DNA of 48,740 nt from an uncultured Coriobacteriaceae bacterium (GTDB lineage Bacteria > Actinomycetota > Coriobacteriia > Coriobacteriales > Atopobiaceae), in the NCBI GenBank assembly GCA_902795065.1, contig CADBJR010000007.1, positions 1 through 48,740 of the forward strand, read 5' to 3'. Shown here piece by piece: positions 36,651-42,702 of the stretch. The notes under the pieces were generated by a model. It saw only the letters and a list, made by a program, of their open reading frames with translations, did not search any database and was not told the DNA's origin. A program made the translations under genes and the position numbers. How positions within the stretch are numbered: the first letter of the stretch is position 1; each line of letters starts with the position of its first letter.

Positions 36651-36680
36651 CTAGACCTCCGCGTTGTTGTGAATGATTGC

Positions 36681-36773
36681 CTATTCCTGCTCGCCCGACG
36701 CGTCCTCGCGCGCGGAAAGCGCAAGCACGGCCTCTCGATTGTCATTGTTGACGGGTTCAAGTTTGATGCTCAT
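36681..36773 (-). pseudogene. N-terminal fragment of a second GNAT acetyltransferase
   Basis: A 30-aa frame MSIKLEPVNNDNREAVLALS... ends early at a TAG codon. Its start resembles the N-terminus of the adjacent GNAT protein (VELKPITEDN...). It looks like a truncated relic left near the island junction. It could be a short unrelated frame. Confidence 0.4.
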
Positions 36774-36804
36774 GTCAACAGCACCTTTACAGGATTAGAC
36801 TCGG

Positions 36805-36840
36805 CTAGGCCCTTGCCATTGATACGACCGTCTCGACATG
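36805..36840 (-). pseudogene. Relic of an rlmD 3' end (HVETVVSMARA)
   Basis: On the minus strand the frame HVETVVSMARA-stop matches the C-terminus of RlmD encoded at 39464 (HVETVVLMSRKDT). The preceding sequence is unrelated. Taken as the original rlmD end displaced when the island between was inserted. Confidence 0.6.
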
Positions 36841-36930
36841 CCTGGAGACGCCATCGTGAATGTCAGCGGTACACCCGAATTGTTTATGGTCAAGTGCCTC
36901 CAACCGAATAAGTCTACAAGCTGCAATTTG

Positions 36931-37497
36931 TCAGTATCTGTCTCCACATTCCTTTCTTGCTTCTGCCGTCCATTTGGAGATGAAATCTGTCTTTGCATCT
37001 GTATAAGCGTCCCGGTTGTGCTCAAATTGCTTCCAAAGCCTGAGCTTCAGTGTTTCATATTCTTTTGCCACGTCAGGATGGTCATTTAAATAATCACGGA
37101 AGTACAGTTCATCATTGTCCCCGGCGTATCGCAGATGGATATGATACACCTTGTCCGCAAATCCATTTTCAGTATATCCCTTATTGAGCGAGACCCGGTT
37201 TGCCCCGAAGGACATGATGGTAAAGCCGCTCTGTTCCAATATTTGCGCCATAGCTTTCATTTCAACACTTTGTGGAATCTCAACCATCACGTCAACGATA
37301 TTCTTGGCCCATATTCCCTGAATGGCGGTGCTTCCGATATGACTGATCCGAATGACAGTCTGATCGGCTAAAAGCCCGGAGAGCTCTTGCTCGATCTCTT
37401 TGTAATAAGCTTCCCACCGTTCATCGTGCGCCACAAGGAAAATGGGGAATAATACCCAAAACTCTTCCAAAGTCATTTTTGACAAGTCTTTTCCCAT
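36931..37497 (-). CDS. GrpB family protein (UPF0157)
   Basis: 188 aa. The nucleotidyltransferase-like GrpB fold shows IRISHIGSTAIQGIWAKNIVDVMVEIPQS (with the GSTA turn and D metal ligand), YHIHLRYAGDNDELYFRDYLNDHPDVAKEYETLKLRLW and a C-terminal TDAKTDFISKWT. The family is common but poorly characterised. The DNA here is AT-richer than outside the island, typical of Firmicutes donors. The stop lies near the left island repeat. Last gene of the island set. Confidence 0.88.
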   Translation of the reverse strand: MGKDLSKMTLEEFWVLFPIFLVAHDERWEAYYKEIEQELSGLLADQTVIRISHIGSTAIQGIWAKNIVDVMVEIPQSVEMKAMAQILEQSGFTIMSFGANRVSLNKGYTENGFADKVYHIHLRYAGDNDELYFRDYLNDHPDVAKEYETLKLRLWKQFEHNRDAYTDAKTDFISKWTAEARKECGDRY

Positions 37498-37529
37498 GCT
37501 AAGAGTCTCCGTAAAACACGATTTGATTT

Positions 37530-38132
37530 CTATTCCTCTAAAGCTTTGATTGCACCCAGACAGTGGATTCTTACGACTCGATTCACGTCGATTTCGGATA
37601 TCTGCCGCAGCTGCTCTACATACGGTCTGACGAACTCCGGTCTGCGTTTGCCGAGGACACGGAAGATCTCCGGCGCTTCCATCCGAACCTTATCATTTGC
37701 GTCATGCAGGAGCTTCTCGAATACCGGCATATAATTCTCATAAATGTCGGGCGTGATCGTGGCGATGTTTTCTGATGCCCAGATGAACGCCAGACGAACC
37801 TTTGGCTCCTCGTCGGAAGCGAAGCGGAACAGGGCCGTCCAGCATGGCTCGATTATGCTATAGCATCCCCGCCCGATCCTGCCGAGGGCGTTCAGCGCAC
37901 GCTCCCGCAAAAGCGGCTCTGGGCTGTCAAGGAAGGAAGCGATAGCTGGAACCGTGTTCTGCACGGACTGAGGGTAGATGAGGCCCATCTCACCCAGCAG
38001 CCAGAGGGCCTTAGCCTGTATCTTTACGGAGTCATGGGTGAGGAGAGACAAAACATATGGTATGTTCTCTTTCCATTCATCCTTTTCTTTTGTCAGTGCT
38101 CCAAGCTCTTTATAGAGTTCTGCTTCGGTCAT
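37530..38132 (-). CDS. HEAT-repeat protein
   Basis: 200 aa, all helical. Repeated helix pairs such as VLSLLTHDSVKIQAKALWLLGEMGL, ASFLDSPEPLLRERALNALGRIG and LFRFASDEEPKVRLAFIWASENIA, then LLHDANDKVRMEAPEIFRVLG, give HEAT-type repeats that form a curved protein-binding scaffold. Similar small HEAT proteins occur near phage and defence genes, but no function is certain. Coding DNA is AT-richer than the host. It lies between the GrpB and S66 peptidase genes. Confidence 0.85.
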   Translation of the reverse strand: MTEAELYKELGALTKEKDEWKENIPYVLSLLTHDSVKIQAKALWLLGEMGLIYPQSVQNTVPAIASFLDSPEPLLRERALNALGRIGRGCYSIIEPCWTALFRFASDEEPKVRLAFIWASENIATITPDIYENYMPVFEKLLHDANDKVRMEAPEIFRVLGKRRPEFVRPYVEQLRQISEIDVNRVVRIHCLGAIKALEE

Positions 38133-38172
38133 ATCACTGGCCTCTCAGACCTGATTGCAGTATCGATCTCTC

Positions 38173-39201
38173 TCAATCGGCAAATCGGATCATCTGCTTT
38201 TCTACATCCACAACCGCTTCAACACCAAATGGAATGATGCACCGAGGCATTGCATGTCCAATGTTCAGGTTGAAAACAATCGGGAGATCAGACCTGCCTA
38301 TGATCTGAATCAACAGCTGCTTATATTCTTGAGCATAAGCTTCATCCATAGGCTTTCCAACCAACACGCCAGAAACAGTTTCAAACACGCCTCTTTCTTT
38401 AAGGTACTCAAGAGATTGCCGATACTTTTCCGGAGAAGGTTTTTCTTCGCTGGATTCCAGAAGCAGTATGCGTCCTCTCCAGTCCTCTGCATCAGGGAAC
38501 AAATGATATTTTTCACACAGATCCGGCATATCCGCATAGCGCTCAGTGTTAAAGAAATCATACATGGAGTCGATACATCCACCGAGTATTATCCCTGAGA
38601 ATGCAGGAGATCCCTGCAACAGTTCAAACCCATAATTGGGATGAGCAATCAGTGGCTTGCCAATCTGATCGGATGAAAAGCTCTTTCGTTCTTCATACCA
38701 GACATCACTGGGAGTTATTTCCTTAATGGTTCCGGTGGAAAGCAACTCCTCAAAATACTTTCGTGTATAGGGGTGCATTTCTGAACTCAGTTCGCAGATA
38801 TCCGGAAGAAACGCCTGTCCGTAAAAAGAATTCAGCCCAACCTTGTGAAGCATCAAATGGTTGACTGTTGTATCTGAAAATCCGAGAAAGATTTTGTCAG
38901 TCACAGCATCCGCAAGCTCATTATGATCGAACAAATACGGTAACATACGGTAAGTATCATCTCCGCCGATTGCACACAGGATCATGTCAATCTGGGGATC
39001 ACGGAATGCCTGCAATAAATCCTCGGCTCTTTTTTCCGGATGCGCTTTGATATAGTCCAGCCCCATTAGAGCATGCGGCATAAACTGTACATTCAGACCA
39101 TATGCTTTCAGTCTGCGAATCCCTATATCCGTTTCAAAACGGATAAATGATTCACCGATGATTCCACTCGACAAACTGACAATACCAACCGTCTTAATCA
39201 T
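38173..39201 (-). CDS. S66 family peptidase (LD-carboxypeptidase/MccF-like)
   Basis: 342 aa from the ATG at 39201, which has a perfect GGAGGAAGT Shine-Dalgarno; the longer reading enters a repeat region. S66 motifs include VGIVSLSSGI, ILCAIGGDDTYRMLPYLFDHNELADAV (nucleophile region here GGDDT, in the position of GGSNT), FLGFSDTT, the ALLESSEEKPSPE segment and NIGHAMPRCIIPFGVEAVVD with the catalytic His. Members cleave LD-peptides of peptidoglycan or inactivate microcin C. The nucleophile Ser of the canonical GGxxS is not obvious, so activity is uncertain. First gene of the island set. Confidence 0.85.
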   Translation of the reverse strand: MIKTVGIVSLSSGIIGESFIRFETDIGIRRLKAYGLNVQFMPHALMGLDYIKAHPEKRAEDLLQAFRDPQIDMILCAIGGDDTYRMLPYLFDHNELADAVTDKIFLGFSDTTVNHLMLHKVGLNSFYGQAFLPDICELSSEMHPYTRKYFEELLSTGTIKEITPSDVWYEERKSFSSDQIGKPLIAHPNYGFELLQGSPAFSGIILGGCIDSMYDFFNTERYADMPDLCEKYHLFPDAEDWRGRILLLESSEEKPSPEKYRQSLEYLKERGVFETVSGVLVGKPMDEAYAQEYKQLLIQIIGRSDLPIVFNLNIGHAMPRCIIPFGVEAVVDVEKQMIRFAD

Positions 39202-39229
39202 ACTTCCTCCGATTATTCTTTCGTTGCCG

Positions 39230-39347
39230 CCCTGACATCTAAACCACAGCCACAACCTGCCGTTATCCAAATCACTAACTCAACCCTGCCGCAAAAACAT
39301 CCCAACCGGCCACTCAACCCTGACATCTAAATGGCCTACTCAACCCT
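39230..39347. repeat. Clustered short direct repeats at the island end
   Basis: CCCTGACATCTAAA occurs twice (39230-39243, 39318-39331). ACTCAACCCT occurs three times (39278-39287, 39312-39321, 39338-39347). Such repeated sites are seen at ends of IS21-like and other transposons. No transposase frame is present. The gap 39202-39463 otherwise holds no gene. Confidence 0.65.
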
Positions 39348-39463
39348 CCGAACGAAGCGATTGATATGTTCTGACAGAACGATTTTTATGGTCAAATCCG
39401 CTCTCTGCCGCTGACGGTCAAATGCCCGAAAAGCCCGGAAATACGGCACTATTTTTTCAAGCC

Positions 39464-40651
39464 TTATGTATCTTTCCGTGACATCAATACTACGGTCTCG
39501 ACATGCTTGGTGTGGGGGAACATGTCCACCGGTGAGATGCGCTCCACGCGATAGCCCCGCTCGCGGAAGAGGGCGAGGTCGCGCACCTGCGTGACGGGAT
39601 TGCATGAGACGTACACCACGCGCGCCGGCGCGAGCGCGGTACATGCGTTGATAAATTCGGGCGTGGATCCTGCGCGCGGCGGGTCGAGGATCACCGTGTC
39701 GAAACGCTGCCCATCGCGGGAGGCGCGCGTCATCCACACGGTTGCGTCCGCGCGCTCGATGTGCACGCGGTCCTCGACACCGTTGGCCGAAGCATTGCCG
39801 CGTGCCATGGACACGCCGCCTGCGTCGCGCTCCACGCCCACGACCTCGACGCCGTCCGCCTGCGCCGCAGCGCAGATGCCGATGGTTCCGCAGCCGCAGT
39901 ACGCGTCGAGGATGCGCTGGCCCGCTTCCGGCGCCGCACCCTCCAGCGCCAGACGGTAGAGCACCTCGGTCTGGGCCGGATTGGTCTGGTAGAAGCTCGT
40001 CGAGGTGATGGCGAAGGTGCAGCCCAGCAGCTTGTCATGCATGGTGGGGCTGCCCCACAGCGTGCGGCACTGCCTGCCGAGCATGGCGTTGGTGCGCTTG
40101 TCGTTGATGTTCTGGACGATGCCCGTGAGCTCGGGATGCTCCTCGACGAGCGCATCCACGAGCTGCTCCGCGCGCGGCAGCTGCTGCTCGCGCGTCACGA
40201 TCGTGAGCAGGACGTCGTCGGTCGCGTAACCCGCGCGCACGATAGCGTGGCGCAGGTGCCCCGTGTGGGCGTCTTCGTTGTAGGCGGAGATGCCGAGCTT
40301 CTGGGCTATGCGCCCCACATCCGAGAGGAGCGCGCGCAGGCCGTCCTTCTCCACGAGGCAGGCGTCGCAGGCCACGATGCGGTGGGTGCCCTTCTCATAG
40401 AAGCCGCTCCGCACGCGCTTGCCGCCTCTGCCTCCCGGCGCAAAGGGCGTCGCAGCCTTGTGGCGGAACGCGAGCGGCTCGTCCATCCCCGCGATCCGCT
40501 CGAGCACGGCACCGTCGGCTTCGACGATCTCGGAGAAGAGCTCCTCCATCGCCGCCTGCTTGCGGTCGAGCTGTATGGGATAGGGCACGGCGAGCCATTC
40601 GCAGCCGCCGCAGCTCCGTGCTATCGGGCAGGTGTAGGTACGGTATCCCAT
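39464..40651 (-). CDS. rlmD: 23S rRNA (uracil-C5)-methyltransferase RlmD
   Basis: 395 aa. The N-terminal [4Fe-4S] cluster ligands are C8, C14 and C17 (CPIARSCGGC) with a fourth at ACDACL. The SAM-binding part shows ILDAYCGCGTIGICAA, the substrate segment FDTVILDPPRAGSTPEF and the catalytic YVSCNPVTQVRDL. The C-terminus ISPVDMFPHTKHVETVVLM is the family's typical end. The last residues (SRKDT) come from the inserted island; the native end appears as a relic at 36805-36840. No clear Shine-Dalgarno precedes the ATG. Methylates U1939 of 23S rRNA in characterised relatives; RlmCD-like dual specificity is possible. Confidence 0.92.
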   Translation of the reverse strand: MGYRTYTCPIARSCGGCEWLAVPYPIQLDRKQAAMEELFSEIVEADGAVLERIAGMDEPLAFRHKAATPFAPGGRGGKRVRSGFYEKGTHRIVACDACLVEKDGLRALLSDVGRIAQKLGISAYNEDAHTGHLRHAIVRAGYATDDVLLTIVTREQQLPRAEQLVDALVEEHPELTGIVQNINDKRTNAMLGRQCRTLWGSPTMHDKLLGCTFAITSTSFYQTNPAQTEVLYRLALEGAAPEAGQRILDAYCGCGTIGICAAAQADGVEVVGVERDAGGVSMARGNASANGVEDRVHIERADATVWMTRASRDGQRFDTVILDPPRAGSTPEFINACTALAPARVVYVSCNPVTQVRDLALFRERGYRVERISPVDMFPHTKHVETVVLMSRKDT

Positions 40652-40765: not shown

Positions 40766-42702
40766 TTAGTTACCGCCGCCGCCTCCCTCGGGCGTATCGG
40801 GCGTTGCCGGTCCCGTGGAGATGGAGAGCGTGATCGTAGTGCCCGGGACAGCGGTGCCCGTGGGCGACTGCGCCACGATGGTGCCGATCGCGGAATCGCT
40901 CTCCGCGTAGCTGAAGTCGACGTAGAAGCCGGCATTGTTGAGGATGGTCGTGCCGCTCTCGTAGTCCTGGCCCACGACGTACGGGATGTCGATGTAGGAC
41001 GGACCCGTGGACACGTAGATGGTGATCGTGGAGCCGTGGTCGACGGACTCGCCGGGCTCGGGCGAGGTGTAGACGATGCGGCCGGCGTACACGCTGCTGG
41101 AACTCGTGTAGCTCACCTCGACCTTGAAGCCGTCCTCCTCGAGCGTCGCCTTCGCGTTGTCCTCGGTGTCGTTGATGACGTTGGGGACGGTCGCCTTCTC
41201 GGTGCCCTTGGACATGTGGTAGACGATCGTGTCGCCTGCCTTCATCTCGGTGCCGGGCGCGGGCTCCTGCTGGGCGACGTGGCCGGCGGGCAGGTCGGAG
41301 TAGACCTCGTCGGCGGCGCGGCCGATGAGCTTGAGGTCGCGGAGGATCTCGTCGACCTCGGAGGCGGTCTTATCGGTCAGGTTTGGTGCGACGACGGTCT
41401 CTGCAGGGGTCGGGCCCTTCGAGATGACCAGGTCGATCTTGGTGCCGTCGGGGAACTGGCGGTTGGGTGCGGGCGTCTGCTCCATGACGCGCCCCTCCTC
41501 GACCGTCTCGGAGTAGCTCTGCTTGACCTCGCCGAGCTCGAAGTGGTCATCGGCCTCGATCTGCGCGATGGCCTCGTCCTTGGTGAGGGTCAGGTAGTTG
41601 GGGACGGGGTACTTGGCATCGGTGCCGCCGAGGACCGACGTCACGAAGTAGATCGCGCCGGCGATGACCGCCGCGCATGCGAGGAAGCCGAGGATGGCGT
41701 TGCGGACGCGGTGGCGCTTGCGGCCGTACTCGATCTGCTGCGCCTGCTCGGTCGCCGTGATCCTGCGGTACTGGCCCGTGGCGCCGGACGTCACGGTCTG
41801 CGGACGGACGAAGGGTCTCGTGGAGCCCTGGACGGCACCGCCCTGGTCGAGGTTGGCCGTATCGGTGATGGTGTTGACCTGCGTGACCGCGGGGATGGCG
41901 GAGATGCGGCCGGCGAGGTAGTCGCGCAGCACGCGGTAGAGCTCGTTGGCGCTCTGGAAGCGGTTGGCCGGGTCCTTCTCCATGCACTTGAGGATGATGG
42001 CCTCGAGCGCGGGATCGATGTTGGGGTTGATCTGGCTGGGCGGCACGGGCAGCTCGTTGACCTGCTTGAGCGCCACGGAGATAGCGTCATCGCCCTCGAA
42101 GGGCACCTTGCCCGTGGCGGCCTCGTACATGACCACGCCGAGCGAGTAGATGTCGGTGGTGGGACCGAGGTCCTTGCCCTGCGTCTGCTCGGGCGAGACG
42201 TAATGGGCGGTGCCGAGCACGGAGTTGTCCTGCGTGAGGTGGCTGTTCTTGGCGCGGGCGATGCCGAAGTCCATCACCTTGATGTTGCCGTCGGGCTGCA
42301 CCATGATGTTCTGCGGCTTGATGGCTTGTGGGCGACGGAGAGCGCCTGGGCGATCTGGGAGCCGATCTGGGCGACCTTCTTGCTGTCAAGGGCGCCGTGC
42401 TTGCGGATGCCGCTCTTGAGGTCGGTGCCGCGCAGGTACTCCATGACGATGTAGTAGGTGTCCTCGTCCTCGCCCCAGTCGTACACGCTCACGATGTAGG
42501 GGCTCTGCAGCGCGGCGGCTGCCTGGGCCTCCTGCTTGAAGCGCGCGGCGAACGAGGGGTCGGAGGCGTATTGCGGCAGCATGGTCTTGATCGCGACCGT
42601 GCGGCCGAGCACCTCGTCGAGGCCCCGGTAGACGGTGGCCATGCCGCCCGTCCCGATCTTGTCCTGGACCGTGTAACGGCCACCGAGCATCTTCGACACC
42701 AT
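40766..42702 (-). pseudogene. pknB: PASTA-domain Ser/Thr kinase (PknB type), frameshifted at the catalytic loop
   Basis: The gene encodes an Hanks-type kinase with a glycine loop GTGGMATVYRG at 17-27, Lys39 in VAIKTM, then DFGIARAKN and SPEQTQGKDLGPTTDIYSLGVVMYEAATG. A transmembrane helix follows (AILGFLACAAVIAGAIYFV), then four PASTA domains that bind peptidoglycan fragments. As read the frame breaks at 42323-42324: after ALSVAHK the expected HGIVHRD segment is missing and the frame shifts into KPQN..., consistent with a 19-nt deletion. The deletion removes the catalytic Asp. Restoring 19 nt gives 652 codons. Last gene of the FhaA-FhaB-PstP-SEDS/PBP-PknB cluster. Real mutation or assembly error is unresolved. 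Confidence 0.88.

Follow-up and report, generated by a model that had tools for sequence, protein, structure and literature searches.

What event placed a second copy of the rlmD gene end some 2.7 kb beyond the working one, with a block of AT-rich genes between them? The DNA examined here (the window, 48,740 nt) is a whole contig of a 2.24-Mb draft genome of 53 contigs, 97.5% complete. A preliminary description of the locus had claimed that the C-terminal coding segment of rlmD is duplicated around an AT-richer block, and both observations were borne out. The two copies form an imperfect 35-nt repeat, in which 28 of 35 positions are identical, 12 nt of them in an exact run, at a spacing of 2665 nt; HVETVV is encoded by both (Table 1). 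The GC content falls from 0.59-0.69 in the flanks to approximately 0.45 over 36.8-39.5 kb, with a 0.53 stretch inside the HEAT-repeat gene. The assignment of the rlmD-proximal copy (...KHVETVVLMSRKDT-stop) as the working end and of the far copy as a relic also stood.

Chance similarity within a local cluster of AT-rich genes would account for a repeat whose copies are just 80% identical; however, the next best match of the 35-mer anywhere in the 48.7-kb window reached 22/35, and evidence from other genomes also counts against it. This reading was refuted by the recurrence of the island end in other genomes, the sharing of a unit array and the half-site geometry of the far copy, and its probability is negligible. 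We consider it probable that the island, which lacks an integrase, is what is left of an element specific for rlmD, or a passenger of one, and that a serine recombinase acting on attB and attP inserted it.

Table 1. Features of the rlmD locus and the island (window coordinates).
Feature	Position	Strand	Support
rlmD (RumA), 23S rRNA U1939 methyltransferase	39464..40651	-	TIGR00479, 316.7 bits against a cut-off of 183.55
Putative element-supplied rlmD end, HVETVVLMSRKDT-stop	39464..39505	-	tail recurs in other genera
Predicted attL, consisting of half B (rlmD side) and the element half-site TCGAGACCGTAGTATTGATGTC at 39480-39501	39476..39510	-
Att-half-site-like unit 1, TTGAGTAGGCCATTTAGATGTC	39322..39343	-	starts 158 nt from attL half-site
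Att-half-site-like unit 2, TTGAGTGGCCGGTTGGGATGTT	39296..39317	-
Att-half-site-like unit 3, TTGAGTTAGTGATTTGGATAAC	39262..39283	-
Att-half-site-like unit 4, TTGTGGCTGTGGTTTAGATGTC	39234..39255	-
S66 peptidase, MccF/MccC-like, passenger	38173..39201	-	PF02016/PF17676; 4e94, E 5e-147
HEAT-repeat protein, passenger	37530..38132	-	PF13646, E 4e-18
GrpB-family protein, passenger	36931..37497	-	PF04229, E 2e-44
Inverted attP-type half-site of predicted attR, island side, TGGAGACGCCATCGTGAATGTC	36843..36864	+	22+6+22 geometry as in other elements
Predicted attR core (relic of the preliminary description)	36811..36845	-	repeat, HVETVV reading and left-end alignment
Putative displaced native rlmD end, HVETVVSMARA-stop	36805..36840	-	compare HVETVALLSRA-stop in G002

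Attachment sites and the exchanged rlmD end

In the proposed mechanism, the block at 36.84-39.50 kb would be an element whose integration took place at the 3' end of rlmD; a large serine recombinase would have recombined the chromosomal attB, which is the native end ...HVETVVSMARA-stop, with an attP of ~50 bp in which a 6-nt spacer, NNCATG, separates two 22-nt half-sites that face each other. Integration would have swapped the last 13 codons of rlmD for element-encoded ones and moved the native end beyond the island. The rlmD-proximal copy is accordingly predicted to be attL, with the element arm inside, and the far copy attR, and the last 13 residues of RlmD are predicted to be supplied now by the island.

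Serine integration demands that the far copy possess an island-side element arm missing from chromosomal rlmD, and this arm was present; the far copy is asymmetric, its island side being an attP-type half-site and its outer side an rlmD end that looks native (HVETVVSMARA-stop). Sites from the window and from other genomes were then scored against a geometry of a 22-nt half-site, a 6-nt spacer and a second 22-nt half-site (50 bp in all), the spacer being NNCATG or NNCACG in most of them. In 11 of the 15 far copies, the island-side half reached a score of 8 or more out of 13 (9 in the window), whereas 0 of 49 rlmD-internal left halves scored above 7 (p=0.0007 against the far copies), with a half-site consensus that was built partly from the tested sequences, the left halves of the far sites having been excluded from its building. 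The poorly fitting far sites were those of L119 and L033 (scores 1 and 2), both of which adjoin an element of the SR314 type, and one of L121 (score 3). In a separate search for dyads, four of the six reconstructed junctions had one and the same CA, that of CATG, as their centre; the window's was the one junction that shuffles seldom matched (6/500). Between the window, G229 and G342, the left ends can be aligned over ~100 nt.

These site data also bear on an ordinary horizontal insertion by homologous recombination, in which the repeat would be a gene fragment produced by tandem duplication. Fragments of rlmD can duplicate, as is seen in G072 (L085:2643-4970), where part of a second C-terminal segment, matching query residues 311-341, is found ~1 kb beyond the end of rlmD, close to the contig edge; but the exact 22+6+22 geometry of the far copies, a non-coding end common to elements across phyla and the repeated use of the same codon make such an origin very improbable.

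The claim that the island provides rlmD with a new end was supported by the finding of an element-type tail in other genera. The tail TTGATGTC...GGAAAGAT/CA recurs in five genomes (G196, G193, G060, G240 and G268), mostly followed by AT-richer DNA, and the form TTGATGTC-N-NGGAAAGATACATAA is common to genera and families whose rlmD genes are otherwise far diverged, as expected if the tail arrives with the element. The drop in GC content after rlmD was 0.146 with the TTGATGTC tail versus 0.098 without it (p=0.021), a comparison that lends weak support because the loci were picked partly by that tail.

It had further been predicted that in relatives without the island the GNAT genes would directly follow an rlmD with the ending VSMARA; a search of the genus relatives for an empty site with this flank found none. 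G001 and G002 possess a full-length rlmD free of the insertion repeat, but with other genes downstream, and the GNAT gene that adjoins the relic is located elsewhere in both, so that the ancestral flank is uncertain; in the closest genome, G004, the contig breaks at rlmD and in the flank. Just outside attR, an open reading frame at 36680-36780 (minus strand; MSIKLEPVNNDNREAVLALSAREDASGEQE-stop) resembles the start of the neighbouring GNAT gene and may be a truncated GNAT. On the other side of rlmD, the gene of a PASTA-repeat kinase of the PknB kind falls into two frames (42274-42702 and 40766-42304, minus strand; break near 42323); relative to G002, a 19-bp deletion has shifted the frame and taken away the sequence around the catalytic HRD motif. 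This deletion may be genuine, or it may stem from misassembly.

Island cargo and the missing recombinase

The names given earlier to the three island genes (GrpB-like, HEAT and S66 peptidase) and to rlmD agreed with the Pfam and TIGR00479 matches, and 4e94 is a solved relative of the S66 protein. As the S66 protein is MccF/MccC-like, it might possibly confer immunity to a peptide-nucleotide antibiotic, for this one gene alone; the island cargo as a whole is likely to be neutral or mildly useful. The suggestion that the three genes form a resistance or defence cassette was not supported: a search for the set elsewhere returned relatives of GrpB, HEAT and S66 that occur singly, at unrelated places in other genomes, and the three island proteins gave no hit to a known or candidate defence protein in PADLOC at E 0.01. 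A conserved three-gene operon was rejected because the genes occur apart. In G178 the same hotspot, downstream of the rlmD paralog, holds a relative of GrpB, and the S66 DNA is 85% identical to its copy in a Murdochiella prophage; the Murdochiella and Oscillospiraceae S66 copies have neither HEAT nor GrpB nearby, and neither of these two genes was found on an element bearing the array described below.

No integrase was found among the island genes, in agreement with the preliminary description, and the island is devoid of recombination, conjugation, phage structural and lysis genes. The host genome gave no match to the PF07508 recombinase family, so that a large serine recombinase is absent from both island and genome; a tyrosine integrase was discounted, since a crude motif screen of the compared loci flagged serine recombinases only. 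A decayed or passenger element, as originally proposed, fits a locus of att sites and cargo alone, and the absence of serine recombinase genes from island and genome marks the island as a derivative, and not an autonomous member, of the recombinase-triplet elements considered below. The recombinases and other autonomous parts would have been lost later, presumably by deletion, or the island would always have been a passenger moved by a helper. With the recombinases missing and the att sites and cargo left, the island would be fixed in place unless a recombinase of the family reaches it, to act in trans or in tandem.

The preferred reading has a sub-variant, differing in that the island would be not dead but mobilisable: a non-autonomous, CIME-like cassette that is still spreading with the help of related serine-recombinase elements. 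Neither att site looks damaged, small islands without an integrase are found repeatedly at the rlmD site in several genera, the order rlmD-S66-att in L044 resembles a single-gene cassette, and tandem arrangements with other elements are present in L033, L032 and G188. Against this, no near-identical three-gene island was found in another genome and the host genome is now without a large serine recombinase; we regard continued spread as conceivable, though somewhat doubtful.

Recurrent insertion at rlmD and the half-site array

Within the class Coriobacteriia, an rlmD-type end close to CAYGTNGARACNGTNNTNNTGATGTCNCG was present in 32 of 396 genomes. When 58 stretches surrounding such ends or relatives of the island were scanned for second copies of the end, these were found 1.2-7.4 kb downstream of rlmD or a paralog in G178, G224, G288, G219, G188 and G324, besides the window. 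The cargo between the copies varied, and included toxin-antitoxin-like pairs, methyltransferases, alpha/beta hydrolases, a SIMPL-domain protein and an AAA/DUF4143 protein.

Between rlmD and the start of S66, a stretch of 260 nt contains four further 22-nt units, overlooked in the preliminary description, of the form TTGAG-N10-GATGT and spaced as in the att core itself; unit counts were well above those of mononucleotide shuffles. The distance from core to array is nearly constant (158 nt in the window, 157 in L033, 156 in L032, 155 in G196, 153 in G188 and ~156 in G021). The non-coding island end (39223-39520) recurs at 78-92% identity in other genera among the 396 class genomes, with other cargo behind it, and the S66-rlmD stretch is kept at 78-92% in G196, G395, G342 and G250. 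In G395 (L074:216-400) and G342 (L075:943-1000) the array runs into a common inverted repeat, GTTGAACGA.GGTC...GACC.TCGTTCAAC, and not into an rlmD end.

An array ~155 nt from the core was found in some triplet elements, not all. In two other Coriobacteriia genomes, the att-plus-repeat end has a triplet beside it and occupies the 3' end of rlmD or of its paralog: in G188 the array adjoins three serine recombinase genes (537, 157 and 521 aa), and in G021, from another family of the class (L127:2948-9723), the array at an rlmD paralog precedes aminoglycoside-nucleotidyltransferase-like, hexapeptide acetyltransferase-like and MFS genes, behind which the same element holds a triplet with a shortened third member. 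In G188 (L119:17861-19358), a separate 1.2-kb element between two rlmD-end copies stands in tandem before the triplet element and holds a single 314-aa serine recombinase without a zinc ribbon; contig ends suggest the same order, 314-aa recombinase then triplet, in Murdochiella.

A promoter reading of the array (TTGAGT...TAGAT) was set aside because the ~10-nt spacing does not fit, and the multiple terminal repeats of IS21-type elements were considered as a comparison, although no transposase of that type was noticed close to the arrays. A scan of viral contigs with the array unit returned 87 single, chance-like matches and no array, and plasmid searches with the island end returned nothing useful. 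We tentatively propose that triplet elements docking at rlmD in Coriobacteriia and Bacillota carry an integrase-side tandem array of 3-6 units, 153-158 nt from the core, which could be bound by the small third protein of the triplet and thereby control integration or its direction. This protein (138-157 aa; phrog_7701) has a partial Recombinase DNA-binding domain and no catalytic domain. If the proposal were true, the array would be an accessory-site architecture unusual for serine integrases, which normally need ~50 bp per site. The locus supplies a series of natural att sites, accompanied by a repeated, putatively accessory array and by a partner protein devoid of catalytic function, and this bears on the division of work within triplets. 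Tandem att-half-site repeats may be undescribed so far; a limited literature search gave no description of a tandem half-site array, or of triplet elements at rlmD in Coriobacteriia.

Prophage relatives and known rumA elements

The closest DNA match to the island end is a prophage of Murdochiella (Bacillota; L033), with the order att core, 22-nt repeats from ~157 nt, S66, serine recombinases of 522, 138 and 519 aa on the same element, and then phage genes (GH25 endolysin, holin and tail genes); its alignment with the window runs from the core via the array into S66. At a contig edge, the rlmD of Murdochiella closes with an element-type tail, followed by DNA like that after the G188 rlmD, consistent with a tandem insertion that interrupted assembly. 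An rlmD-like gene is the site of Ruminococcus phage NatCom_38182, which has the same att core (31 nt, 93.5%) and a triplet 52/31/41% identical to that of G188; no half-site array was detected in it. In L044 (Clostridia), rlmD is followed by S66 and then by a displaced native end, HVETVTLITRA-stop, so that the arrangement recurs outside the phylum of the window.

Site-specific insertion at the 3' end of rumA/rlmD, as first claimed, is thus supported by the repeat, the att geometry, the array and the shared element end. The rlmD-side end of the island (att core, array and S66) would be the end of an rlmD-targeting triplet element, best matched by the prophage, and the source element was probably a prophage, as judged mainly from one contig (L033) and one phage record. 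Since the island end and S66 match a prophage end in a distant bacterium, the rlmD site appears to be a cross-phylum crossroads for mobile elements, a docking site common to phage-like and ICE-like serine-recombinase elements in two phyla of gut bacteria; the cargo carried there includes the S66 peptidase and, in G021, the aminoglycoside-nucleotidyltransferase-like and MFS genes named above.

The island might instead be what is left of a rumA-specific ICE or IME of the streptococcal or CTn5 kind, with a single serine integrase. In G229 and L251, rlmD has a long C-terminal extension, which we take to be of the CTn5/enterococcal rumA type, and the left end of the island aligns with the att junction in G229. 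Moreover, streptococcal ICEs and IMEs with a single serine integrase are known to insert at rumA, exchanging the 3' part of the gene, and CTn5 of C. difficile also targets it (PMC4701971, PMC5357655, PMC4320837). However, it is a phage-gene-bearing triplet element, and not a single-integrase ICE, that matches the island at its rlmD-side end, and the island has no conjugation gene; this origin is unlikely, the phage genes of L033 having caused an ICE-only reading to be dropped as first choice. Of the streptococcal pattern suggested in the preliminary description, insertion at the rumA/rlmD 3' end stood, but the closest relative proved to be a Bacillota triplet prophage and not a streptococcal ICE.

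The preferred reading, a remnant or passenger of a triplet element, can be set beside known systems. Streptococcal ICEs and IMEs and CTn5 share with the window the target gene and the exchange of its 3' part (PMC4701971, PMC4320837). An ICE of the streptococcal type has one integrase, with att inside its gene, whereas L033 has a triplet, with att outside it; streptococcal serine-recombinase triplets have been reported at hsdM, traG and mutT (PMC4701971), so that a triplet at rlmD is a difference. CIMEs keep their att sites, have lost their recombination genes and carry 1.2-13 kb of cargo (PMC7563491); the island is likewise flanked, by sequence, by attL and attR and holds cargo only, but CIMEs stem from ICEs or IMEs, whereas its source looks phage-like, the closest end being on a prophage. 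Serine recombinase sites are usually ~50 bp with inverted repeats, and the gin element in gerE of B. cereus has three serine recombinases and an inverted-repeat att within the gene (PMC5595907); its girC stands apart from the other two recombinases, and its target differs from rlmD. The Murdochiella prophage shows the att core, array and S66 in the same order as the window. It and NatCom_38182 have a triplet of Resolvase/Recombinase proteins, whereas the island, without a recombinase or phage gene, carries HEAT and GrpB where these prophages carry recombinases and phage genes.
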